Assembly: GCF_030530745.1 (NCBI RefSeq)
Contig: NZ_JAUMUI010000001.1
Span: forward strand, 106,961 to 170,960
DNA: 64,000 bases
DNA from: Neisseria sp.
GTDB taxonomy: Bacteria; Pseudomonadota; Gammaproteobacteria; Burkholderiales; Neisseriaceae
Reading direction: 5' to 3'
The first letter of the stretch is position 1. Each line of letters starts with the position of its first letter. Both the position numbers and the translations under genes were made by a program. This document shows positions 7,929 to 63,999 of this stretch, piece after piece. Below the pieces are notes generated by a model. It was given only the letters and a program-made list of their open reading frames with translations. It made no database searches and was not told where the DNA came from.

Positions 7929-10091
7929 ATGCAGCAGAAAGCCCGTTTCCAAATCGGCGGCATGACCTGCCAAGCCTGCGCCTCGCGCATTGAGAAGGTG
8001 TTGAACAAAAAAGATTTCGTTCAAGCGGCCTCGGTAAACTTCGCCAGCGAAGAGGCGCAGGTGGTGTTCGACGGCAGCCGCACCGATGCCGCCGCGCTGG
8101 CGGCAATCATCGCAAAGGCAGGTTTTGAAGCGGTGGAAAAAACCGATACCGCCGCCACGGTGCCGTCTGAAAACCATATCGGCCGGCGTTTGTGGCTGCT
8201 GCTGACCGTCAACGTGCCGTTTCTCATCGGCATGGCGGGCATGATGACGGGCCGGCACGACTGGATGATGCCCGTTATGTGGCAGTTTGCGCTGGCCAGC
8301 GTGGTGCAGCTTTGGCTGGCGGTGCCGTTTTACAAAAGCGCATGGGCGAGCATCAAAGGCGGGCTGGCGAATATGGATGTGCTGGTTACCGTCGGCACGG
8401 TGGCGATTTACCTTTATTCAACCTATATGATGTTTGCCCACCGCGCGATGGGCCACGACGGCATGGCGCATGTGTATTTCGAGGCGGGCGTGATGGTGGT
8501 CGGTTTCGTGAGTCTGGGCAAATTTCTCGAACACCGCGCGAAAAAATCCAGCCTCAACAGCCTCGGCCTGCTGCTGAAACTCACGCCGAGCCAAGTGAAT
8601 GTGGAGCGCAACGGTCAATGGCAGAGCCTGCCGCTCGACCAAGTGCAAACCGGCGACCTGATCCGCGCCAGCCACGGCGAACGGATTGCGGCCGACGGAA
8701 CGGTGGAAAGCGGCGGCGGCTGGGCCGACGAAAGCCATCTCACGGGCGAATCGCAGCCCGAGGCAAAAACCGCCGGCAGCAAAGTGCTGGCAGGTGCCAT
8801 GATCACCGACGGCAGCATCGTTTACCGCGCCGAACAGCTCGGCAGCCAAACCCTGCTGGGCGACATGATGGCCGCGCTTTCCGAAGCGCAGGGCAGCAAA
8901 GCGCCGATTGCGCGGGTGGCCGACAAAGCGGCGGCGGTGTTCGTGCCCGCCGTGGTCGGCATCGCCGCGCTCACTTTTGTTTTGACCTGGCTCTTCAAAG
9001 GCGATTGGATACCCGCGCTGATGAACGCCGTGGCGGTATTGGTGATTGCCTGTCCGTGCGCGCTCGGCCTCGCCACGCCCGCTGCGATTATGGTCGGCAT
9101 GGGCAAGGCGGTGCACCACGGCATCTGGTTTAAAGACGCTGCCGCCATGGAGGCCGCCGCCCATGTAAACGCGGTGGTGCTCGACAAAACCGGCACCCTC
9201 ACCGAAGGCAAACCCGAAGTGGCGGCGGTGTATCTGAGGCCGTCTGAAAACACAGACGAAAACGAACTCTACCGCCTTGCCGCCGCCGTCGAACAAAATG
9301 CCGCCCACCCGCTCGCACGCGCCATCGTTCAAGCGGCCTTGGCGCGCGGCATCGCCCTGCCCGAAGCCTGCAATGTGCAAACCGAAGCCGGTGCAGGCGT
9401 GAAAGCCGATATCGACGGTATCGGCGAAGTGAAAGTGGGCAAACCCGCCTATTGCGGCCTCACACTGCCCGAAAACCTTGATTCCGTATGGCAAATCGCC
9501 AGCATCGCCGCCGTGTCGGCAAACGGCCGCGCCCTCGGCGCCTTCGCGCTGGCCGACCGTCTAAAAAACGACAGCAAACAGGCGGTAGGCCGTCTGAAAG
9601 CGCACGGTATCGAAGTGTATATGATGAGCGGCGACAATCAGGGCGTGGCCGGCTACATCGCCGCGCAACTGGGCATAGACCGCGCTTTCGGCAACATGAG
9701 CCCGCGCGACAAAGCCGCCGAAGTGCAGAAGCTGAAAGCCGCAGGCAAAACCGTGGCGATGGCGGGCGACGGCATCAACGACGCCCCCGCACTCGCCGCC
9801 GCCGACGTCAGCTTCGCCATGAAGGGCGGAGCCGACGTGGCCGAACACACCGCCTCGGCCACCCTGATGCAGCACTCGGCCGACCAAATGGTCGATGCCC
9901 TGCTGATTTCGCGCGCCACCCTGAAAAACATCAAGCAAAACCTGTTTTTCGCCTTTTTCTACAACACATTGGGCATTCCGTTGGCCGCCTTGGGCTTTCT
10001 CAGCCCGGTGATTGCCGGCGCAGCCATGGCCTTAAGCTCGATTTCGGTGCTTGGCAATGCTTTGCGCCTGAAGCGGGTAAGGATTGAGTGA
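7929..10091 (+). CDS. copA: Copper-exporting P1B-type ATPase
   Basis: 720 residues. One N-terminal HMA domain (GMTCQAC near residue 12) is followed by membrane helices, the actuator motif TGES, the transmembrane metal site CPC (about 375-377), the phosphorylation motif DKTGT (D about 419) and the hinge GDGIND (about 612). The CPC motif and HMA domain indicate Cu(I) specificity. The enzyme pumps copper out of the cytoplasm across the inner membrane. It is cotranscribed with copZ behind a CueR-type operator, which fits copper induction. Two uptake sequences lie inside the reading frame. Confidence 0.95.
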   Translation: MQQKARFQIGGMTCQACASRIEKVLNKKDFVQAASVNFASEEAQVVFDGSRTDAAALAAIIAKAGFEAVEKTDTAATVPSENHIGRRLWLLLTVNVPFLIGMAGMMTGRHDWMMPVMWQFALASVVQLWLAVPFYKSAWASIKGGLANMDVLVTVGTVAIYLYSTYMMFAHRAMGHDGMAHVYFEAGVMVVGFVSLGKFLEHRAKKSSLNSLGLLLKLTPSQVNVERNGQWQSLPLDQVQTGDLIRASHGERIAADGTVESGGGWADESHLTGESQPEAKTAGSKVLAGAMITDGSIVYRAEQLGSQTLLGDMMAALSEAQGSKAPIARVADKAAAVFVPAVVGIAALTFVLTWLFKGDWIPALMNAVAVLVIACPCALGLATPAAIMVGMGKAVHHGIWFKDAAAMEAAAHVNAVVLDKTGTLTEGKPEVAAVYLRPSENTDENELYRLAAAVEQNAAHPLARAIVQAALARGIALPEACNVQTEAGAGVKADIDGIGEVKVGKPAYCGLTLPENLDSVWQIASIAAVSANGRALGAFALADRLKNDSKQAVGRLKAHGIEVYMMSGDNQGVAGYIAAQLGIDRAFGNMSPRDKAAEVQKLKAAGKTVAMAGDGINDAPALAAADVSFAMKGGADVAEHTASATLMQHSADQMVDALLISRATLKNIKQNLFFAFFYNTLGIPLAALGFLSPVIAGAAMALSSISVLGNALRLKRVRIE

Positions 10092-10098
10092 TATGCCC

Positions 10099-10129
10099 AG
10101 GCCGTCTGAAAACACCTTTCAGACGGCCT
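10099..10129 (+). terminator. Convergent-DUS hairpin terminator
   Basis: AGGCCGTCTGAAA, a 5-nt loop and the exact complement, 8 bp after the copA stop codon. Confidence 0.75.
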
Positions 10130-10187
10130 AAACTCAATAAAATCAACCACATCAATTAAAAAATAAATAAATTCTAAGAAAACTATA

Positions 10188-10226
10188 AAAAATCTTATTT
10201 TAACTACGAAAAATCTTAGTTATAAT
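10188..10226 (+). promoter_or_regulatory. Putative recN promoter with tandem 10-bp repeats
   Basis: A TATAAT box (10221-10226) lies 52 bp before recN. Just upstream, the 10-mer AAAAATCTTA occurs twice (10188-10197 and 10209-10218) with a 21-bp period, about two helical turns, which puts both copies on one face of DNA. The -35 region is weak, so activator or repressor binding to the repeats is plausible but only inferred. Confidence 0.45.
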
Positions 10227-10278
10227 CCCGCATAACCATCTCACTCCCGTTTCAGACGGCCCCAACCGAGGAACTCCC

Positions 10279-11940
10279 ATGCTGCTGGCGCTTTCATTAC
10301 GCGACTTCGTGATTGTAGAAACACTCAACCTCAGCTTCCAAACCGGCTTCACCGTACTCACCGGCGAAACCGGTGCGGGCAAATCCATCACGCTTGATGC
10401 GCTCGGCTTATTGTTGGGCGACAAAGCCGACTTCAGCCAAGTGCGCACCGGCGCCCGAGAAGCCCGACTTTCCGCCCTGTTCGACATCGGCGGCCTGCCC
10501 GCATTGCAGGCGCAACTGTATGAACAGGGTTTGCTGGAAGAAGGCGGCGAAGAGCTGAGCATACGCCGCATTATCGACGTCAAAGGCAAAAGCCGCAGCT
10601 TCATCAACAACCAGGCCGCCACGCTGGCGCAATTGAAAGCAATCGGCAGCCAACTCATTGATATCCACGGCCAAAACGCACACCATTCGCTCAACCAAGA
10701 ATCCGCCCAGCGGCAATTGCTCGATGCTTTCGCCGGCGCCCAAGAACAGGCAGGATCGGTGAAAAAGCTTTACCAAAACTGGAGCGACGCCCGCAAATCC
10801 CTGCACGAAGCGCAAAACCACGCCGAAAACACCGCCATCGAACGCGAACGGGTGGAATGGCAATATAACGAACTGAACCGGCTCGATTTGCGCCACGGAG
10901 AATGGGAAAGCCTCAACCAAAGCCACCACAGCCTAGCCCACGCCGCCGAACTGTTGCAGGCCGCTGAGCAGGTTTCGGAACACATCGACGGCGACAACGG
11001 TATGCAGCGCCAACTCTACCAATGCCAAAAACTCTTGGGCAGCCTGCAAAACATCGAACCGCACTTTGCCGAAAGCCTCGAAATGCTCGCCGCCGTCGAA
11101 GCCGAATTGGGCGAAATCGGCGCCAATATGCGCGACGTAGCCAACCGCGTCGAAATCAACCCTAGAGAATTGGCCGAACAAGAACGGCGCATGGGCGAGC
11201 TGATGGGCATGGCGCGCAAATACCGCGTCGAACCCGAAGAGCTGCCCGCCAAACTCGAAGAGCTGAACCGCACCCTGCAAAGCCTGCACGAAGCCGCCGA
11301 CATCGCCGCCCTCGAAGCCGCCGTTGCGCACACCGAGGCCGAATACACCGCCGCCGCGCAGAAACTGTCGGCCATGCGTCGTGAGGCCGCCGCCAAACTG
11401 GCCGCCGAAACCACCGGACACATGCAGCATTTATCAATGAAAGGGGCGACCTTCCACATCGAACTGCCACCCTGCCCGCCCGCGCCGCACGGCTTGGAGC
11501 AAGTGCAGTACCAAGTGGCCGCCAACAAAGGCAGCCCCCTGCGCCCGCTCAACAAAGTGGCCTCCGGCGGCGAACTTGCCCGCATCAGCCTTTCCATCCA
11601 AGTGGTTACCAGCCGCTACACCCAAGTGCCGACGCTGATTTTCGACGAGGTAGACACGGGTATCGGCGGCGGTGTGGCCGAAACCGTAGGCCGCGCCCTG
11701 CGCGCGCTGGGCAAACGGCACCAAGTGCTGGCCGTTACCCACCTGCCACAAGTGGCCGCCTGCGGCGAAAACCACTGGCAGGTGCACAAACACAGCGAAG
11801 GCGATCAAACCGTTAGCGAAATCAAAGTATTGGACAACAGCAGCCGCATCGAAGAAATCGCCCGCATGCTCGGTGGCGAAGTGATTACCGGCACCACACG
11901 CAAACATGCCGAAGAAATGCTGGCTCTGGCGGCGCAATAA
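10279..11940 (+). CDS. recN: DNA repair protein RecN
   Basis: 553 residues, full length. The Walker A motif GETGAGKS is at 29-36, a long coiled-coil middle section runs from roughly 150 to 370 (rich in Glu/Ala/Leu heptads), and the C-terminal head has SGGELARISLSIQ and the Walker B stretch LIFDEVDTGIGG. RecN is an SMC-like ATPase acting at double-strand breaks. In Neisseria it supports recombinational repair and transformation survival. An alternating-frame overlap with other genes is absent; it stands alone behind its own promoter. Confidence 0.95.
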   Translation: MLLALSLRDFVIVETLNLSFQTGFTVLTGETGAGKSITLDALGLLLGDKADFSQVRTGAREARLSALFDIGGLPALQAQLYEQGLLEEGGEELSIRRIIDVKGKSRSFINNQAATLAQLKAIGSQLIDIHGQNAHHSLNQESAQRQLLDAFAGAQEQAGSVKKLYQNWSDARKSLHEAQNHAENTAIERERVEWQYNELNRLDLRHGEWESLNQSHHSLAHAAELLQAAEQVSEHIDGDNGMQRQLYQCQKLLGSLQNIEPHFAESLEMLAAVEAELGEIGANMRDVANRVEINPRELAEQERRMGELMGMARKYRVEPEELPAKLEELNRTLQSLHEAADIAALEAAVAHTEAEYTAAAQKLSAMRREAAAKLAAETTGHMQHLSMKGATFHIELPPCPPAPHGLEQVQYQVAANKGSPLRPLNKVASGGELARISLSIQVVTSRYTQVPTLIFDEVDTGIGGGVAETVGRALRALGKRHQVLAVTHLPQVAACGENHWQVHKHSEGDQTVSEIKVLDNSSRIEEIARMLGGEVITGTTRKHAEEMLALAAQ

Positions 11941-53897: not shown

Positions 53898-55571
<1,674 letters not shown>

Positions 55572-55798
55572 AGCAATCTCTTAAACTTCATGCATAGATT
55601 GGAAAATTTCACACAACCCGGCAGGCCGTCTGAAGCCTACCGTTCCTACTGTTTAAAGATTTTTACATTTTAACCGAAAAAATCTTTTTTAAAAACAATG
55701 AGTGAAGATAAGCAGCATCCCCCAACCTCCCGCCGACACATACCGCTGTTTAATAACCATATCGGTCTTAAATATCTTCAAAATTGCCAATTTCGGCA

Positions 55799-55830
55799 GA
55801 TCCAATACACAACCGCTCAAAAGCAACTGA
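55799..55830 (-). repeat. Decayed CRISPR repeat beyond the array end
   Basis: 21 of 32 positions match the repeat, and 9 of the 11 differences are transitions. It starts 68 bp before the first annotated repeat, within the array's own unit range (64-69). Recognisable core: CAATACACAACCGCTC. Confidence 0.6.
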
Positions 55831-55866
55831 AGTGGTTTATCCGGCATTGGCTTCATTCTGCCAATT

Positions 55867-58155
55867 GCTTCAACACACAGCCGCCTGAAGGCGGCTGCTT
55901 GTCCAAATCCCGGCGGCGTTTGTCCGGCAGCAGGTTTCAACACACAGCCGCCTGAAGGCGGCTGCTTATTAACATACCATCCCTTGTTGTGAAAGACGTA
56001 GTTTCAACACACAGCCGCCTGAAGGCGGCTGCTTCGGGCTTCCCGCAAATTTCAGTCGGCCAGTTAATGTTTCAACACACAGCCGCCTGAAGGCGGCTGC
56101 GTTTTGAAAGGTAGGGCGCATAAACGGCCTTGCCGGTTTCAACACACAGCCGCCTGAAGGCGGCTGCATTAAAGTTTATTCCCCTAGCATGATTGAGCTT
56201 GTTTCAACACACAGCCGCCTGAAGGCGGCTGCGTTGTTGGTGTAGTTCTTGCATTACTTGTGAATAGTTTCAACACACAGCCGCCTGAAGGCGGCTGCTG
56301 GATGTATGCTGGCAGCGGCTGCGACTTCAACGGTTTCAACACACAGCCGCCTGAAGGCGGCTGCCTATAGGCGGTATAGCCGTTGCCCAAAGCCTGCAGT
56401 TTCAACACACAGCCGCCTGAAGGCGGCTGCACGCATCTACCTGGTCGTCATGCCTCCCGTTGGGGTTTCAACACACAGCCGCCTGAAGGCGGCTGCTTCA
56501 ATACCACGGGGCGAAGTAGTTAGTTCTGAAGTTTCAACACACAGCCGCCTGAAGGCGGCTGCGTCCCGGCAGTACCGGAATAAGACGGGGATTTTGTTTC
56601 AACACACAGCCGCCTGAAGGCGGCTGCCTGACAGATTTCTTTTGGCGTTGTTTTACATAACGTTTCAACACACAGCCGCCTGAAGGCGGCTGCATGGATA
56701 ATCATCCAATGCCAGCGGGGCAAGGTTGTTTCAACACACAGCCGCCTGAAGGCGGCTGCTGCGTGGTTTTGGCATCTTTAATACTCCGTAATTGTTTCAA
56801 CACACAGCCGCCTGAAGGCGGCTGCAGGCTGCCGTTGCCGAACGCAGCCGAAAACTGCTGTTTCAACACACAGCCGCCTGAAGGCGGCTGCGCCCAACCT
56901 GCGCACGCCCTGCATCCTGCACTGGGATGTTTCAACACACAGCCGCCTGAAGGCGGCTGCTGAATTAAAGAGCAGTTATGCTTATTACAAGCAGGTTTCA
57001 ACACACAGCCGCCTGAAGGCGGCTGCCCGCGCCCTTGGCCTCAATCCTACGTAAAACAGAGTTTCAACACACAGCCGCCTGAAGGCGGCTGCCTTCACGA
57101 TATGAGTTTGCATATTATTCTCAAGTGTTTCAACACACAGCCGCCTGAAGGCGGCTGCGTAATAACGGCTGCGGAAGAATCCTCAATATAGACGGTTTCA
57201 ACACACAGCCGCCTGAAGGCGGCTGCACAAAGCTTCGCTTCGCTTCGTTTTGTATGCTGAAGTTTCAACACACAGCCGCCTGAAGGCGGCTGCTTTTGCC
57301 GTTCATCTATCCTGTATCACCTTGTATATGTTTCAACACACAGCCGCCTGAAGGCGGCTGCATAACGCGGTCAAAGTGCCCACTTGCCAAACTATGTTTC
57401 AACACACAGCCGCCTGAAGGCGGCTGCGTTGGCGCAGATTTAGACAAATTAAGCAGCACGGTTTCAACACACAGCCGCCTGAAGGCGGCTGCTTTACCCT
57501 ACCCGGCAGCTGATAGACGGGGATTAGTTTCAACACACAGCCGCCTGAAGGCGGCTGCTTGACCGCCCTTTTCGGGGATTTGCGCGGCCTGCAAGTTTCA
57601 ACACACAGCCGCCTGAAGGCGGCTGCCTTCACATTCAGCCTTGGCGTGGTAAGCGAAGAGGTTTCAACACACAGCCGCCTGAAGGCGGCTGCCTGATTCA
57701 TATTTGCGCACTGTACCCTGTTTCGTGTTTCAACACACAACCGCCTGAAGGCGGCTGCACGATTACAAATGCCGTTTCTGAATTGACTTTTAGTTTCAAC
57801 ACACAGCCGCCTGAAGGCGGCTGCCCATTACGCCGCTGGGCAGACGGTTGATATAGCTCTGTTTCAACACACAGCCGCCTGAAGGCGGCTGCAGAAGAAG
57901 GGCGCGGGCTGAAAAAGCCGATTTGTTGTTTCAACACACAGCCGCCTGAAGGCGGCTGCGTCGGTACTGGTTTCAGCCAGCTTTACTATCTGTTTCAACA
58001 CACAGCCGCCTGAAGGCGGCTGCCTAACAACATTTTTTCTTCTGTTTCCACACAAATGTTTCAACACACAGCCGCCTGAAGGCGGCTGCGCGGCCATGCC
58101 GTCAAAACCAAAAACGACAAAATGTTTCAACACACAGCCGCCTGAAGGCGGCTGC
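55867..58155 (-). CRISPR. Type I-C CRISPR array, 35 repeats
   Basis: I count 35 copies of a 32-nt repeat and 34 spacers of 32-37 nt (units 64-69 nt). On the plus strand the repeat begins GTTTCAACACACAG, has the palindrome AGCCGCC-TGAA-GGCGGCT and ends GC. By analogy with other I-C arrays the transcribed strand is minus, giving an 11-nt crRNA 5' handle TGTGTTGAAAC. The repeat at 55867 has C for T at position 2 and the one at 57727 has A for G at position 14; all others look identical. The variant at the far end from cas2 fits leader-distal decay. No spacer matches another part of this window by eye. Confidence 0.97.
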
Positions 58156-58346
58156 TCCCTATGGTTTGAAGCCTTGCTGGGTAAGGCTTGGCGGCCTTTG
58201 ATTCGCTAAACTTCCGCATAGGGAGTGATTTGCAGTATAGCACGGTATGAATTTTTATACTGCATTTTTATAACATACTGATTTTTAAAGAATTTTTTGC
58301 TATCGCTAACCTGCCTGCATTTTAATGAGAACCGCAGGTTAGCGAA
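58156..58346 (-). promoter_or_regulatory. CRISPR leader region
   Basis: 191 bp between cas2 and the first (leader-proximal) repeat. It is AT-rich in the middle (58225-58300). Near cas2 a perfect 12-bp inverted repeat, TCGCTAACCTGC (58303-58314) and GCAGGTTAGCGA (58334-58345), and near the array TCCCTATG/GCATAGGGA (58156-58163, 58216-58224) frame it. It should contain the array promoter and the integration signals for Cas1-Cas2. Confidence 0.7.
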
Positions 58347-58640
58347 TTATAAAATCAACGTATCCTTAAATATATCCACCGCCGGTTTGGCACCGTAGTG
58401 CTCTACTTTTCTGCGCCATTTGCTGCCCAAATGGTAAAACCGCAAACTGTCGCACTCGGGGTTGTAAGTTTCCAATAATTTTGCTTTCAATACTACCCAC
58501 TGATCGGGCGTAACGTCGCATTCAAACACCGAATATTGCGCCCGCACGCCGTAATCCAGGCAATGTTTGGCAATCCTGCGCAGCCGTTTCTGCCCTTCGG
58601 GATCGTCAAATGAAATATCGTAAGTAATCAACATCAGCAT
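58347..58640 (-). CDS. cas2: CRISPR-associated endonuclease Cas2
   Basis: 97 residues with the ferredoxin-like fold; the conserved Asp is D8 in LITYDIS, followed by RLRRIAKHCLDYGVRAQYSVFEC, typical of subtype I-C Cas2. It forms the integration complex with Cas1. It lies 39 bp after cas1 on the same strand. The gap contains GCAAGCGGTC, one base away from a Pasteurellaceae-type uptake motif. Confidence 0.96.
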   Translation of the reverse strand: MLMLITYDISFDDPEGQKRLRRIAKHCLDYGVRAQYSVFECDVTPDQWVVLKAKLLETYNPECDSLRFYHLGSKWRRKVEHYGAKPAVDIFKDTLIL

Positions 58641-58679: not shown

Positions 58680-59693
58680 CTACCTCATTAAAAACGGCGG
58701 ATATTCCGCCAAATCGCCGCGTAAATGGCGGGCGAGCAACATTGCCTGAATATATGGCAATAATCCGATTTCTACTTCCTCGTTCAAAAAAGGATGAACT
58801 ATTTTTTCCTGTTTTTTCGCCTGTAAGGTTTGGAATATCAACTTGCGTGTTTCAGGTTTAATCATAATTGCACCACTTGCTTCGCTAACAAAGTCTGTTG
58901 GTTTGATTTGCCCGCGGTTAATCAGCGACAACACCATTCTATCCACCCACCAGGCACGGAATTCTTCCAAAATATCCTGTGCCAAACTGTCTCGCCCCGG
59001 ACGGTCGGCGTGCAAAAAGCCCACCTGCGGATCCAAGCCCACGCCCTGCAAGGAACCGCTGATGTCTTTACCTAAAATACTGTATAAAAACGACAGCAAC
59101 GCATTCACCCCGTCGCGCGGCGGGCGGCGGTTACGTCCGTAGAACACAAAACCGCTTTCTGTCTTAATCAACTGCCCGAACACGCCGAAGTAGCGGGCTG
59201 CCGCGTCGCCCTCGATACCGCGAATCAGTTCCAGATTTTCCGCTTTTTTCAATTGCATCAGTGATGAATTTAATGCCGAAACCGCCGTCTGAATCTCCGC
59301 ATTATCGCCGTGATTGCGAATCTGCCGCTGCAACACCCGCTTGGAAGCCTGAATTTTGGCGGCGATAATATTGCGTGCCACCGGCACGGGGTTTTGCTCG
59401 GAAAGCCGATACTGCGTCCGCCGCAACAGCACGTTACCGCTCTGCCGCCCTTGCAACCGCCCCAAAAAACGCCCGTTTTCGGTGAAAAACGCCAAATTGA
59501 CATTATTTTCACCGCAAAACCCCATCAAAAACGGCGACACCAACACATTGCCGAAACAGAAAATATGCCCGATGGAATGCACCGGCAACTGTGCCACTTT
59601 TTTGTGATCTTGCTCCACCACCAAAGTTTCGCGTTCTTTGTGGAGATAACTGCCTTGAGTGGTGATATACAGCGTATTTTGCAGCTTACGCAT
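58680..59693 (-). CDS. cas1: CRISPR-associated endonuclease Cas1 (subtype I-C)
   Basis: 337 residues from ATG 59693 (MRKLQNTLYITTQGSYLHKE), with GGGAG upstream. A longer frame to 59786 would translate an uptake sequence and is rejected. The metal-binding residues are E161 (RGIEGDAAARYFG), H228 (GFLHADRPGRD) and D240 (LAQDILEEFR). Full length and intact. It integrates new spacers with Cas2; Cas4 (61018) should trim and orient prespacers. Unlike the usual I-C order with cas4-cas1 abutting, 1.3 kb of unrelated DNA separates them. Confidence 0.97.
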   Translation of the reverse strand: MRKLQNTLYITTQGSYLHKERETLVVEQDHKKVAQLPVHSIGHIFCFGNVLVSPFLMGFCGENNVNLAFFTENGRFLGRLQGRQSGNVLLRRTQYRLSEQNPVPVARNIIAAKIQASKRVLQRQIRNHGDNAEIQTAVSALNSSLMQLKKAENLELIRGIEGDAAARYFGVFGQLIKTESGFVFYGRNRRPPRDGVNALLSFLYSILGKDISGSLQGVGLDPQVGFLHADRPGRDSLAQDILEEFRAWWVDRMVLSLINRGQIKPTDFVSEASGAIMIKPETRKLIFQTLQAKKQEKIVHPFLNEEVEIGLLPYIQAMLLARHLRGDLAEYPPFLMR

Positions 59694-59925
59694 GGTTGAA
59701 AAACTCCCTTTATTTTGACCGCTCTTTTGTTTTTGGAACAACTTACCATTTAGGCCGTCTGAGAAAATCAGTCTTTCAGACGGCATAGAACAAAAAACAG
59801 ATAACCACTAACGCGTTCGTGTTCAAGGACACAACCCATGTTTGCTTCTATTTATATGCAATTTAGTATCTTCATGCTAAAATACTCTTGGCTTAAATTC
59901 ACAACCTTAATTAAAGGAACATTAA

Positions 59926-60605
59926 ATGAAAAATAGATTTTATTTAAAAACGAAGGTCCTAACGATCAAATAATATTCGATGCCCTTCATTATGCTTCCG
60001 AAATTTCTACTCAAAATAATGACAAGCATATTCATATCATATTTCCCCATAAAGCTAATTTTGAATCAACCAATCTTGGTAAAATAATTGACCAAATATT
60101 TGGTAATGGTTCAGCCAAGAAATTATGCAAAGGTGAAAGCATAGGAAATTTAGATTTTATACTACCATCAAAAATTAACCTCCATAATTCGTCCGGTACA
60201 ATTTTGGCAATTTATTGTTCAACTGATGATATGAATAAAATAGACTCAAATGCTTCTGCAAATTCAATTATATTTGTATCATGGCTCTCAGAAGAAGCTG
60301 ATATTTGGGAGAGTACTTGGCATAATAATGGGCTTAACATTATTCACGGGGAATCCTCTCAACAAATTGAAATTTTACCAGAAGAAATCACATCATCATT
60401 AAAACGGTTAACCTCTATGGTTAATCTATCTACTGGCTTGGCGCACCCTTCAGATCAAAAGCATGCTCAACGTATTTTCAAAGAGCTACAAGAAAAAGGA
60501 TACAAAGCCGATGAACAAACAGTTGCAAATTGGGCCATAGCCAATGGCTGGAATGCTCGCCATTTGAATGATCTCAAAAAACTAACCAAGAGATATCTTT
60601 CATAA
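59926..60605 (+). pseudogene. Accessory gene of unknown family, frameshifted, inside the cas operon
   Basis: A good start (AAAGGA at 59913-59918 before ATG 59926; extended -10 TGCTAAAAT at 59875-59883) opens MKNRFYLK but stops after 15 codons. Reading one base differently at the A5 run 59946-59950 gives one continuous protein of about 226 residues that runs to 60605. The 133 C-terminal codons are open without any fix (from TTG 60204). The C-terminus is helical and charged (HPSDQKHAQRIFKELQEKGY). I do not recognise it. It is antisense to the cas genes, AT-rich, and has no uptake sequence. Confidence 0.65.
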
Positions 60606-60686
60606 TTTTTATTCGTTCAATAAACCCTTAGATGACTTTTTTAAATATTTAAAAAAACCATCTAAATTACAATCTATAGGCAAATT

Positions 60687-60728
60687 ACGTAGGTTGGATT
60701 AGACAAAATTCTGTAACCCAACCTACGT
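60687..60728. repeat. Palindrome ACGTAGGTTGG
   Basis: ACGTAGGTTGG (60687-60697) and CCAACCTACGT (60718-60728) form an 11-bp perfect stem with a 20-nt loop. Palindromes of this sequence type occur as dispersed repeats in gammaproteobacteria. It lies between the convergent plus-strand pseudogene and the minus-strand remnant. Confidence 0.7.
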
Positions 60729-61015
60729 TTACTCATCATCTAGGTCAAGTCTTTCTCTTTCTTCCCTTATTGCCTCCAAATCACCTTCACTAAGCTCTCA
60801 TTCCAAATAGTAAAAAAATTGTATTTTTATTATCTAGTATTTCATTCATTTCATCTAAAATTATTTTCTACAAAATTATTCTCTTCTATCTCATCAACAT
60901 TTTTTAATAATAACTCTTGCGGCAAACCACTTTTTAACCCGAGAAAGTTATCATGAAAGGTATAAACCCGATCATCATGTCCAGTATCTACAAGAATATT
61001 CACAATATTTTCTAC
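60729..61015 (-). pseudogene. Decayed coding remnant 3' of cas4
   Basis: Three reading-frame pieces join into one protein-like segment of about 95 residues after two single-base corrections: VENIVNILVDTGHDDRVYTF then DEMNEILDNKNTIFLLFG then ELSEGDLEAIREERERLDLD, ending at TAA 60731-60729. The 5' end is cut off exactly at the cas4 stop codon, in another frame. Family not recognised; the acidic tail and 'TGHDD' segment give no function. Confidence 0.5.
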
Positions 61016-61017
61016 TA

Positions 61018-61686
61018 TTACTCTCCAAACAACCCCTCCACATACCCCACCGACTTATCCTTCTCCAGCAACTTCGGTTGGCAAATTTCTATCAGCGAGC
61101 AGGCTTTGCAGTGTTTGCCGTATTCGGGCAGCGGGGTAGTGCCGCTGTCTAACAGTTCGCGTACTTGGCGGATCGCGTTCAGGGTTTCGGCTCTGAGGCC
61201 ATCTGAAAATATTACCGGCACGCGGTGTCGGGTTTGCATATACCAGAGTGCGCCCTCGTCTATAGTTTGCCCCGTCATTTCTTCCAGACAAAGCGCTTGG
61301 GCGCAGAGCTGGATTTCGTCCATCGCGGTGGGTTTGGGCCTGCCGCGTTTGTATTCTACGGGTTTCAGGCTGCCTGTACGCAAATCCCGCTCCACCATAT
61401 CGGCAATGCCCGTCAGCCCCAAGCGTTCGGCGGACAAATGCACGCTGCGTTCAAACCGCACGCCTTTGCGGGTTTCAGGCTCGCCGCCGTCCACTCGTTC
61501 GTGCAGCACCCGCCCCTGTGCGGTGAGAAAATTCTCCGCCCACGCCTGTTCGTTGTGAATCAACGCACACTGGCGCGGGCAAAAGGCGTAGTGTTGCAGG
61601 GCGGAGAGGGGAACGGTGGGTAGATCCCGTTCCCCTGTGCCTGCAAGCGGTGGTTTTTGCTCAGAATTTTGCAAATTTTCCGTCAT
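61018..61686 (-). CDS. cas4: CRISPR-associated exonuclease Cas4
   Basis: 222 residues. Iron-sulfur cysteines are C36 (FCPRQC region) and C193, C196 and C202 (HCKACSLIEIC). The RecB-type nuclease motifs are GIADMVERD and VEYKRGRPKP (Asp, Glu-x-Lys). Cas4 processes prespacers and selects PAM-bearing ends with Cas1-Cas2. Its ATG overlaps the cas7 stop as TGATG. It is the last gene before the 1.3-kb insertion. Confidence 0.95.
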   Translation of the reverse strand: MTENLQNSEQKPPLAGTGERDLPTVPLSALQHYAFCPRQCALIHNEQAWAENFLTAQGRVLHERVDGGEPETRKGVRFERSVHLSAERLGLTGIADMVERDLRTGSLKPVEYKRGRPKPTAMDEIQLCAQALCLEEMTGQTIDEGALWYMQTRHRVPVIFSDGLRAETLNAIRQVRELLDSGTTPLPEYGKHCKACSLIEICQPKLLEKDKSVGYVEGLFGE

Positions 61687-62525
61687 CAGAAACCGTCTAT
61701 TTCTTGAGGTGTTAATCCGTCGAGATTATCTAACCGATAGCTGCCGTCGGCGTTTACTTTCAGGCTGCCGTGTACGTTGGCGGACGAATATTGCCCTGCT
61801 TTGCAATTGTGTTCCCACCAGATGAGTTTGAGTACCTGCATACTGCCTTCGGGGCGGGCGGAAGATGCGTCGCCTTCAAACAGTTTGGTGAGCACGGCTT
61901 TGATTTTGTCGGCATCGCCGTCTGAAAAGCCGGTGCGTTCGGCCAGCTGCGGCGACATGGCGCCGAAGGCGACGTAAATGCCGCTGTCCACGCGGTGTTT
62001 CATGCCCATGGTGTCGGAGCCGCGTTTGCTGCCGTCGCCTTCGCCGCTGACGCTTTTGGTAATTTGCGTACTGGTGATATTGACCGGCTCAACACTGAAT
62101 GCGGATTGAATGGTTACGGGACCGCGTACGGCAATCGATACGCCTGCGCCGTCATCACTTTTGCCGAATGCGAATACCTGCCCGAAGCTGCGCACGTCCA
62201 GCCATTTTTCACAGGCTTTTTTAGCAGTTTCGTCTTTATCGGCTTTTTTACCGAATGCCTCTGCCCCCAAGCCGACTTCTTTGTCTTTGGCACGGTTGGC
62301 AAGGCTGGTCATGCCGTCGGTTTTCTTTTCGTCGGATTGTACGAAGATGGCTTCGCCGCTGTCTTGCAGGCGGTCGCGGATTTTGCGTTTCAAACAAACA
62401 TCGGTCATTTCGCCGATGCCTGAAAAATCGGCACGCGGGCGGTTGCCGTTTAAGGGGTCGCCGTTGGGATTGGCGTTTTTGACGCTGATAATCAGGGCAA
62501 AGTCGATTTTTTTGGTTAAGCTCAT
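61686..62525 (-). CDS. cas7: Cascade backbone subunit Cas7 (Csd2), subtype I-C
   Basis: 279 residues. The N-terminal DFALIISVKNANPNGDPLNGNRPR is the hallmark of Csd2/Csh2 proteins, followed by CLKRKIRDRLQ and the RRM core. It polymerises along the crRNA spacer in the effector complex. It starts 25 bp after cas8c and overlaps cas4 by one base. Full length; one uptake sequence is embedded (near 61915). Confidence 0.96.
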   Translation of the reverse strand: MSLTKKIDFALIISVKNANPNGDPLNGNRPRADFSGIGEMTDVCLKRKIRDRLQDSGEAIFVQSDEKKTDGMTSLANRAKDKEVGLGAEAFGKKADKDETAKKACEKWLDVRSFGQVFAFGKSDDGAGVSIAVRGPVTIQSAFSVEPVNITSTQITKSVSGEGDGSKRGSDTMGMKHRVDSGIYVAFGAMSPQLAERTGFSDGDADKIKAVLTKLFEGDASSARPEGSMQVLKLIWWEHNCKAGQYSSANVHGSLKVNADGSYRLDNLDGLTPQEIDGF

Positions 62526-62550: not shown

Positions 62551-62952
62551 TTATTCAGGGGTTTCGGTTTTCTTTTGTTTGGCGGCTTTGCGTGCGGCAA
62601 TTTGGCGTGCCAGCTCCATTTTTTGGCAGTGGTAACCGAGCAGGAATTCGCCGCTTAATTTGTCGTCGCAAACAAAGTCGTCGGTTTGGAACAGCTCCAT
62701 AATCTCACCGATGGCCTGCGTGCCCGTATCTTTGCCGCGGCTGCGCAGTCGGTCTTGATAGGGTTTCAGTGCCAATTCGATATTGCGCCAAGTGGCAAAA
62801 GGGTGTTCGGCAAAGCGCTGCATATAGCGTTCGGCGGTGGTGGCGCGTTTTTCCTCCGCCAGATAAAGCGCATAGGATTCGATATTTTCGGCAATGGCCA
62901 GCAGCCTGCCGTACAAGTAGTCGCGTGAACGGTTTTCTGTATCTAAACTCAT
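62551..62952 (-). CDS. cas11c: Internal in-frame Cas11c small subunit
   Basis: 133 residues from an internal ATG of cas8c (MSLDTENRSRDYLYGRLLAI). A strong Shine-Dalgarno sequence, AAAGGAGAA (62969-62961), lies about 10 nt before it inside the cas8c reading frame. Subtype I-C systems are known to make Cas11 from such an internal site of cas8c. The predicted all-helical C-terminal domain fits. Expression here is inferred from the binding site. Confidence 0.78.
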   Translation of the reverse strand: MSLDTENRSRDYLYGRLLAIAENIESYALYLAEEKRATTAERYMQRFAEHPFATWRNIELALKPYQDRLRSRGKDTGTQAIGEIMELFQTDDFVCDDKLSGEFLLGYHCQKMELARQIAARKAAKQKKTETPE

Positions 62953-63999
62953 AGGGTAAGTTCTCCTTTCTGATAAATCATGATGACGGGCGCGCCAGCC
63001 TTTGTATAAAGCGCAAGCGACGCCGATGTTTCTTTGCCACTCCCAATTTTCGCTGCCGCTCGGATTGCAGGCCGTCTGAAAACTTTTTTGCACCAAATCA
63101 TAAGGCATCGGCACGTTTTTACCGCCGGCAATCACGGGCAGCAGGCGGGCGTAGAGTTGTTTTTTCAGGGCATCGCTCAATGTCTGTCCGTAAACGGCGT
63201 AGCCGATGGCAGACGGCGACGGCGGCACAAACGCCCACAGGGTTTGTTTATCTGTTTTTTTGCCGTTTTGCTTTTCAATGCTGTGGCGTTGGTACCAAGA
63301 AAAATCGTCTATCCAAGCGTCCAGGTTGGCGAAATAGTCGGCAGGCAGAAATTCTTGGTAGTAAGTCAGCGCCATACGTCCCGGTGTGGCGGAGTCCAGC
63401 ATGAGCAGGGAAATCTGTTCATGTTCTTTCAGCGCTTTTTTATAGCCGTGCAGTTTCTTTTTAATGATGGCGGCGGCCTGCCGCCCGATATTGACAGACC
63501 AATCGATACCGCTGTTTTCGTTTTCAGACAGACTGTTGATTTCGTCATTATTTTCAACCGCACTTGTATCCAGATTATCCCAGTCGATTTCGTCAAAAGT
63601 ATCTTTTATCGGCGAAGGAATTTCTTTGCCGCTGATTGCCCAAGCAACGGTTACCTGATCGCCGTTGCGGATACCTTGGCGGGCGATCAGCCAACGTAAT
63701 GCACTGTGTGCTTTGGCGGATACTTCCGCCGAGACACTGGCCGCCTCTTCAGCCGCTTCAAAACGCCCACGGAAGGTGTAGCCCGCCGTATCGTTGGACG
63801 AAATCAATTTGGCTTTATCGCCCGTATGACGCAATTTGGCAGGGTGCATGGTGGAAACCGACGTATCGATACCCTGTATCAAACAAAAACCCTGTTGTGC
63901 CGCACTGCTGCCGATGTAGTCTATCCACGACTGCTGCACGCTTTGATCCGTCCATGTTTCGCTATGCACATCGCCGGCAATTTCCACACACCAGCACAC
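62551..63999 (-). CDS. cas8c: Large subunit Cas8c (Csd1), C-terminal part
   Basis: The window edge cuts the gene; 482 C-terminal residues are present, roughly 80% of a typical Csd1 of about 590. Blocks such as SNDTAGYTFRGRF, AHSALRWLIARQG and LMLDSATPGRMALTYYQE match subtype I-C Cas8. Cas8c recognises the PAM and starts R-loop formation. Its last 133 codons overlap the internal cas11c start at 62952. Upstream genes cas5 and cas3 should lie beyond 64000. An exact Haemophilus-type uptake motif lies at 63548-63565. Confidence 0.94.
   Translation of the reverse strand: MCWCVEIAGDVHSETWTDQSVQQSWIDYIGSSAAQQGFCLIQGIDTSVSTMHPAKLRHTGDKAKLISSNDTAGYTFRGRFEAAEEAASVSAEVSAKAHSALRWLIARQGIRNGDQVTVAWAISGKEIPSPIKDTFDEIDWDNLDTSAVENNDEINSLSENENSGIDWSVNIGRQAAAIIKKKLHGYKKALKEHEQISLLMLDSATPGRMALTYYQEFLPADYFANLDAWIDDFSWYQRHSIEKQNGKKTDKQTLWAFVPPSPSAIGYAVYGQTLSDALKKQLYARLLPVIAGGKNVPMPYDLVQKSFQTACNPSGSENWEWQRNIGVACALYKGWRARHHDLSERRTYPMSLDTENRSRDYLYGRLLAIAENIESYALYLAEEKRATTAERYMQRFAEHPFATWRNIELALKPYQDRLRSRGKDTGTQAIGEIMELFQTDDFVCDDKLSGEFLLGYHCQKMELARQIAARKAAKQKKTETPE
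63548..63565 (-). other. Haemophilus-type DNA uptake signal sequence
   Basis: On the minus strand AAGTGCGGT (63565-63557) is followed by TGAAAATAA. Core and flank fit the Haemophilus USS consensus AAGTGCGGT-N-R-W6. It lies within cas8c. The Neisseria uptake sequence has no resemblance to it. Confidence 0.7.

Follow-up and report, generated by a model that had tools for sequence, protein, structure and literature searches.

In defence islands and hotspots different defence systems accumulate at one locus, and the insertion of IS elements into cas loci is reportedly a known case of foreign DNA in a cas operon. The minimal mobile elements (MMEs) of Neisseria are said to have been described by Saunders & Snyder in 2002 and by Snyder in 2007. 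By the definition quoted in PMC3082526, these are different whole-gene cassettes lying between the same two conserved genes, exchanged by homologous recombination in the flanks and varying from strain to strain within a species. The site described here lies between cas4 and cas1 of a type I-C CRISPR-Cas locus at the end of the window (the whole 64,000-nucleotide stretch of Neisseria sp. DNA that was analysed). This locus occupies the minus strand, cas8c, cas7 and cas4 being followed by cas1, cas2 and CRISPR repeats:

55700..58300 (edges approximate), minus strand: CRISPR array of about 34 repeats, the repeat core being counted 34 times within 55001-58400
58347..58640, minus strand: cas2 (PADLOC Cas2c, 4e-39)
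58680..59696, minus strand: cas1 of type I-C (TIGR03640, 489.8 bits, over the cut-off)
59697..61017, no strand: cas4|cas1 slot, 1,321 bp, GC 0.32
61018..61686, minus strand: cas4 (PADLOC Cas4c, 3e-81), with its stop at 61018
61686..62525, minus strand: cas7 (Csd2; TIGR02589, over the cut-off)
62551..63999, continuing past the window, minus strand: cas8c (Csd1; TIGR01863, over the cut-off)

The cas genes were checked with Pfam, PADLOC and NCBIfam. Cas8c/Csd1, cas7/Csd2 and the I-C cas1 all score over curated NCBIfam cut-offs, and the locus resembles type I-C CRISPR-Cas both in these profiles and in the order cas8c-cas7-cas4-cas1-cas2, differing from it in the gap that this lineage has between cas4 and cas1. 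Both cas1 and cas2 are open frames followed by the repeats, and together with the array they look intact. Beyond the window in its own genome (G000, locus L101), cas5 and cas3 follow cas8c; two frames judged by eye, one helicase-like (896 aa) and one RhuM-like (166 aa), lie upstream of cas3.

An AT-rich insert of about 1.3 kb between cas4 and cas1 had been predicted originally, and the segment is indeed set apart, with a GC content of 0.32 compared to approximately 0.44-0.57 in the neighbouring cas genes (500-base windows). It contains the following features:

59718..59726, minus strand: uptake sequence of the Haemophilus type, one mismatch, within the cas1 leader, which is conserved (from the sequence)
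59751..59787, no strand: inverted pair of neisserial uptake sequences (DUS) before cas1, with an exact 12-mer at 59775-59786
59926..60605, plus strand: gene X, its body open at 59937-60605, with a DUF1889-like C-terminus
60628..60665, no strand: palindrome after X, 19-nt arms, 89% complementary, terminator-like by eye
60687..60728, no strand: REP-like palindrome between X and the remnant, 20-nt arms, 85% complementary, 11-bp outer stem
60729..61015, minus strand (cas-sense): decayed remnant of a 119-aa gene family, matching an intact gene in locus L061 (genome G023)

For the DUS pair, and for all DUS counts below, we used what we take to be the letters of the DUS core. The letters and dialect names of the Haemophilus-type sequence (USS) are those given in PMC3630211 and PMC12616744.

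The remnant begins right after the cas4 stop as had been predicted, lacks its first 25 codons and is broken twice in frame, leaving three pieces in different frames that correspond to residues 26-74, 79-92 and 91-119 of the intact 119-aa relative (76%, 64% and 72% identity respectively). This relative adjoins cas4 in G023, a different genome of the same genus. PADLOC returned no family at E up to 1 for the remnant and none for the intact form. The predicted 11-bp-stem palindrome is present at 60687-60728. The other palindrome was not called in a terminator scan; promoter and terminator scans of the insert gave results at or below chance, and Rfam gave no match at gathering score. The segment did not prove to be a common IS, which would have refuted the original reading: Pfam detected no transposase-like family among its proteins and there is no flanking direct repeat, the only repeat present being an unrelated one of two copies, so that neither the transposase gene nor the flanking direct repeats of an insertion sequence are found.

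The plus-strand gene expected antisense to cas exists as an open frame of 222 aa (59937-60605) next to cas1, but its start is broken, the ATG at 59926 being out of frame and followed by an in-frame TAG at 59934. The promoter-like box proposed for it did not hold up, as a sigma-70 consensus scan found 6 sites compared to 6.1 (sd 2.5) in shuffled sequence and none just before X, though the leader (TAAAATA, AAGGAA) is conserved with loci L038 and L060. Judged from its sequence, the window slot combines the worn remains of two cassettes: from one, the end of a gene of the 119-aa family, and from the other, gene X in antisense, its start broken. Both cargo genes are probably inactive, and because both are decayed the present contribution of the window copy to immunity is probably nil.

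Intact 226-aa relatives of X occupy the same slot of another Neisseria (G033, 83% identity), of Haemophilus parainfluenzae (L038, 81%) and of a second Pasteurellaceae genome (G177, 66-67%). X is antisense and adjoins cas1 in all 4 slots where it is found. The interval between X and cas4 differs among them: the window has the remnant there, G033 a gene of 219 aa, and H. parainfluenzae a SLATT_5 membrane gene (PADLOC RTasSLATT, 2e-34); G177 lacks any ORF of 60 aa at this place. Outside the slot X is rare: matches, several of them partial-length, occur in 4/84 genomes of the family and 4/369 of the class (own genome included in both) and in 3/140 Pasteurellaceae. A relative with 47% identity in G066 lies beside iscS/iscU-like genes rather than cas (by eye). 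X is also present in 20 of 72,556 plasmid records, relatives on plasmids being annotated as DUF1889 family protein, and a named defence system adjoins X in only one of five plasmid contexts viewed. This is Klebsiella variicola plasmid pKPN692_2 (L217), where X is annotated as two reading frames beside avs3a/avs3b; in Bradyrhizobium X has as neighbours an ATP-binding protein along with a 3'-5' exonuclease. No named defence system appears in the remaining three contexts. There was no X in phage records, and none of seven pattern matches in viral contigs was a relative. The C-terminal ~70 residues of X resemble DUF1889/YoaC (PDB 2es9, 2jn8; E 4e-6), from which X differs by an additional N-terminal part of ~140 residues; its score lies below the Pfam gathering cut-off for DUF1889 (PF08986; 23.5 bits vs 26.9), the N-terminal part has no convincing match, and PADLOC gave no family at E up to 1. 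We consider it most likely that X functions as an accessory anti-phage gene.

It had been assumed that cas4 and cas1 normally abut in I-C loci, which is true of most other I-C lineages but not of this one. In Neisseriaceae, 25/28 cas4-cas1 junctions contain an insert of > 200 bp (589-2,702 bp; GC 0.27-0.43, median 0.30), and the three tight junctions measure 66, 2 and 4 bp; the 28 omit L063 (no cas1 in place), L009 (contig end) and the array or broken loci L061, L067, L068 and L070, and retain L051 despite its truncated cas1. In Pasteurellaceae, 39/50 junctions exceed 200 bp, counting L159, in which cas4 was not found within 4.9 kb. The other 38 measure 296-2,444 bp with a median GC of 0.31, three loaded slots lack any ORF of 60 aa, and the 11 tight junctions measure 0-104 bp. 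These 50 junctions, each with a cas1 that is nearly complete, represent 48 genomes (two each from G106 and G116), broken cas1 copies being omitted (e.g. G158, G135, G200, G201, G209, G205, G124:C40). L159 is omitted from the tallies of length, GC, orientation and uptake motifs, L095 is omitted from the junction gap tallies, and L038 lies outside both the 28 and the 50 and is included in the orientation and motif tallies. Assignment to Pasteurellaceae rests on L038 (H. parainfluenzae) and on richness in two USS forms, at least four of either form being present in 17 of the 20 control stretches from Pasteurellaceae genomes introduced below.

A class-wide draw of 369 genomes gave 32 matches, from which 30 loci were read (own included). 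Among the 29 others, 21 junctions measure 31 bp or less, one 175 bp and six 582-1,091 bp, and one locus has no cas4 nearby. Inserts of > 200 bp are thus found in 64/78 junctions of the two families compared to 6/28 class-wide (Fisher 1.6e-8), a contrast in which shared ancestry of loci overstates independence and for which the Pasteurellaceae loci were picked by similarity to the cas1 of the window. The six class-wide inserts also differ in kind, having GC within ~0.09 of the adjoining cas1 and containing small toxin-antitoxin-like or BRO-like genes (by eye).

To characterise the cargo, 30 proteins were scanned with PADLOC and Pfam, covering 19 cas4-cas1 slots (18 from Neisseriaceae, among them the array locus L061, plus L038) and a few other places. 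Strong PADLOC matches were obtained in 8/19 slots, which is a count and not an enrichment. These include RTasSLATT (L038), PstI-like (L040) and AlwI-like (L041) restriction-modification, AbiP2 (L045), Old in two pieces (L047), DarT with DarG (L048), Shedu (L053), and a SMODS cyclase with a SLATT effector, i.e. CBASS (L054). The remaining 11 slots gave no strong PADLOC match; Pfam adds HNH_5 (L039), Nmad2 (L055), PIN_12 (L056) and a Rce1-like protein (L066). A 349-aa protein of L066 looked SIR2-like by eye; this was rejected, as PADLOC gave no match and Pfam no SIR2 family. Among Pasteurellaceae proteins, 3/4 match in PADLOC (HEC-05, Old, and PDC-S35 with a TIR domain) and 3/8 in Pfam. The cargo differs between loci, which rules out a single conserved accessory cas gene, and the comparison of junctions confirmed that related I-C loci differ in the genes they carry, an intact X being present in three relatives. 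The expectation that cargo had been acquired within a defence locus is likewise upheld, in the form of a recurrent slot occupied in two families by different genes, often of defence.

In Neisseriaceae, cas5 and cas8 overlap by an estimated 4 bp in 27/27 loci and the cas8-cas7 interval never exceeds 63 bp (n = 27), with no cargo at either junction in 27 loci each. The cas7-cas4 junction exceeds 200 bp in 5/28, two of these (262 bp) having no cas-sense ORF of 60 aa; cas3 and cas5 overlap in all 10 loci of one effector type and are separated by 106-4,007 bp in all 13 loci of the other, six of them by > 1.5 kb. The cas1-cas2 interval is at most 79 bp in 29 class-wide loci measured. With cas5-cas8 and cas8-cas7 closed and cas7-cas4 and cas3-cas5 sometimes open, cargo therefore sits mainly at module borders. 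The longest ORF of the cas4-cas1 slot is cas-sense in 57 of 61 slots with an ORF (3/64 have none).

The loci of the second effector type thus have another slot, at cas3-cas5 (L075, L083, L085, L087, L090, L094), holding Gabija, SIR2+HerA, Old-like, DUF262-like (HEC-06) and metallo-beta-lactamase-fold genes; PADLOC, run on four of the six long slots, identified GajA+GajB (L087), SIR2+HerA (L094), Old (L083) and HEC-06 (L075, 7e-18). A 122-aa gene at cas7|cas4 suspected by eye of being an EVE protein has no Pfam match. In L070 (G019, 8509-10927) an SLFN-g3 helicase gene (PADLOC PDC-S41, 2e-289) lies inside a split cas4, and in L069 (G082, Neisseriaceae) cas4 and cas1 abut and cas2 is found ~8.3 kb beyond cas1.

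Clustering placed 11 cassettes, one of them weakly, in the slot of both families: AbiP2, X, HNH_5, Old, CBASS, Nmad2, a 572-585-aa gene, a 94+313-aa pair, DarTG, PIN_12 and, with only 27-52% identity, a small membrane protein. As to the flank recombination by which MMEs are defined, a tract of ~4.3 kb is identical in G050 and G054. It starts within cas8, spans cas7, cas4 and the slot, and stops 509 nt into cas1; outside it, identity is 83-95% downstream and 59-95% upstream. The tract is by this pattern a homologous replacement, and the only clean one among the pairs compared. In L051/L052 and L039/L049 the slot is about ten points more alike than the cas7-cas4 flank; in L055/L057 there is no contrast between slot and flank, in L058/L059 the slot is less alike than the flanks, and L042/L054 have unrelated cargo between flanks that are ~90-92% alike.

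The cas flanks of the 50 Pasteurellaceae loci contain 136 DUS cores in 190,927 nt, compared to 4 in 300,020 nt of control sequence (twenty 15-kb stretches from Pasteurellaceae genomes, GC 0.38-0.48), and reach a GC of 0.56. Because both DUS cores and GC exceed the controls, many Pasteurellaceae I-C loci look imported from Neisseriaceae, and the neisserial uptake sequences within them point to cross-family traffic. Fewer than two DUS cores are present in 16/39 loaded loci, and at least two in 23/39 loaded compared to 2/11 tight loci, a modest difference (p 0.037). The flanks of L136, L155 and L162 have GC 0.54-0.56 and 7-9 DUS cores in 3.4-4.1 kb, their cas genes lying within AT-rich, USS-bearing genomes. 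An exact Haemophilus-type USS occurs within 160 nt of cas1 in 6/25 Neisseriaceae slots and in 10/39 Pasteurellaceae slots. For the Neisseriaceae slots the expected number is 0.33, given a background in that family of 30 per 358,700 nt. Its position is always -25 to -33, so that it may simply be an inherited part of the cas1 leader beside the ribosome site, and we do not claim bilingual uptake tags as a selected feature.

Chimeras of cas1' and cas4' form five junctions in three genomes (G048, G023, G013; loci L051, L061, L067, L068) with one common breakpoint, from cas1 nt ~350 to cas4 nt ~202; one junction keeps only cas1 nt 199-349, and in L067 a DarTG cassette lies between two chimeras. In a simple model, a cas4'-cargo-cas1' unit would have formed a circle and then been integrated through one crossover. 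Full copies of cas1 exist elsewhere in G048 and G031, and only pieces of it were found in G013 and G023. In G048 (L225) and G031 (L226) a complete cas1-cas2-CRISPR unit lies on a separate contig from the effector genes, the run of which stops at cas4 or cargo beside an rpoD-like gene.

The slot, its varying cargo, the position bias, one replacement tract and the sharing between two families are direct observations, and we think it highly probable that this I-C lineage has a cassette slot at its cas4|cas1 junction, whose often defensive cargo is swapped by recombination in the flanks and which is worn in the window. On this reading, AT-rich segments, typically with one or two genes and in many cases encoding known defence systems, would enter between the 3' end of cas4 and the 5' end of cas1 and be replaced by homologous recombination via the conserved cas4 and cas1 flanks, as in the one clean pair, with donor DNA most likely arriving by natural transformation. 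Since nearly all cargo lies in the cas orientation, sense cargo could be read with the operon, presumably by co-transcription, and many cassettes should protect against phage through the mechanisms known for their families.

The cargo could instead be a partner or regulator of CRISPR that tunes spacer acquisition or backs up interference, X being expressed inversely to the cas transcript. Its position inside the adaptation part of the operon, the predominance of cas-sense ORFs and the constant antisense placement of X next to cas1 all agree with such a role, but the cargo acts by diverse mechanisms (restriction, abortive infection, toxin-antitoxin, CBASS), many such systems work alone, and cargo is absent from 3/28 Neisseriaceae and 11/50 Pasteurellaceae loci. 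In the window, where cas1 and cas2 are open and ~34 repeats follow, we found no evidence that the insert regulates or interrupts spacer acquisition, and we regard this explanation as unlikely. Less probable still is an addiction module guarding the cas operon against loss. DarTG is present in L048, L067 and L168, and some class-wide inserts are toxin-antitoxin-like by eye; however, most identified cargo is not toxin-antitoxin, G013 keeps its DarTG cassette though only pieces of cas1 were found there, and the window cargo has decayed. That same decay of both genes, and the palindromes beside them, would be expected if the insert were neutral debris or IS remains with no relation to defence. We give this the least credence, because at this point the relatives have cargo that is intact and for the most part different (three genomes have an intact X), and the window insert has neither a transposase-like family nor flanking direct repeats.

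A cassette slot of this kind means that an operon of adaptive immunity contains an exchangeable place for other defence genes. Its position picks out a short set of genes as good candidates for anti-phage systems of a new kind: X, the 572-585-aa gene, the 94+313-aa pair, genes of 119 and 207 aa, and others. The sequences also document the passage of defence genes between Neisseriaceae and Pasteurellaceae, which uptake sequences help to trace, and the slot opens to testing the question of whether the two arms of immunity, adaptive and innate, are passed on and expressed jointly. We put forward more tentatively, as a possibility we rather doubt, that the I-C operon is a platform for the exchange of innate-immunity cassettes, with the conserved 3' end of cas4 and 5' end of cas1 as homology arms, uptake tags of two families at the cas1 border, cassettes able to multiply as cas4'-cargo-cas1' units (as the common breakpoint of the chimeras would suggest), and cargo of unknown type that is anti-phage. 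In that case defence genes would travel, and may be expressed, with CRISPR adaptation, and X and the other unknown cargo would represent undiscovered anti-phage families.

No slot of this kind in a cas operon is described in the open-access literature searched, most subscription papers and all preprints lying outside this scope, so that a description may exist elsewhere, and none appears in passages of PMC5704561, PMC11090510, PMC1538595, PMC3082526, PMC9944170 or PMC12231136. Unlike IS insertions into cas loci, the window slot contains no IS and is flanked by intact cas frames. It is like defence islands in bringing different defence systems to one locus, but lies inside a cas operon and is usually limited to one or two genes, and the window slot shows neither an integrase nor a phage context. 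The slot, with many unrelated clusters of cargo between one conserved pair of genes, agrees with MMEs as PMC3082526 defines them, one genome having been compared per species. It differs in that the flanking pair is cas4 and cas1 of a single operon, that the cargo is rich in named defence systems, and that the same slot is common to Pasteurellaceae. We therefore read it as a minimal-mobile-element-like defence slot inside a CRISPR operon.
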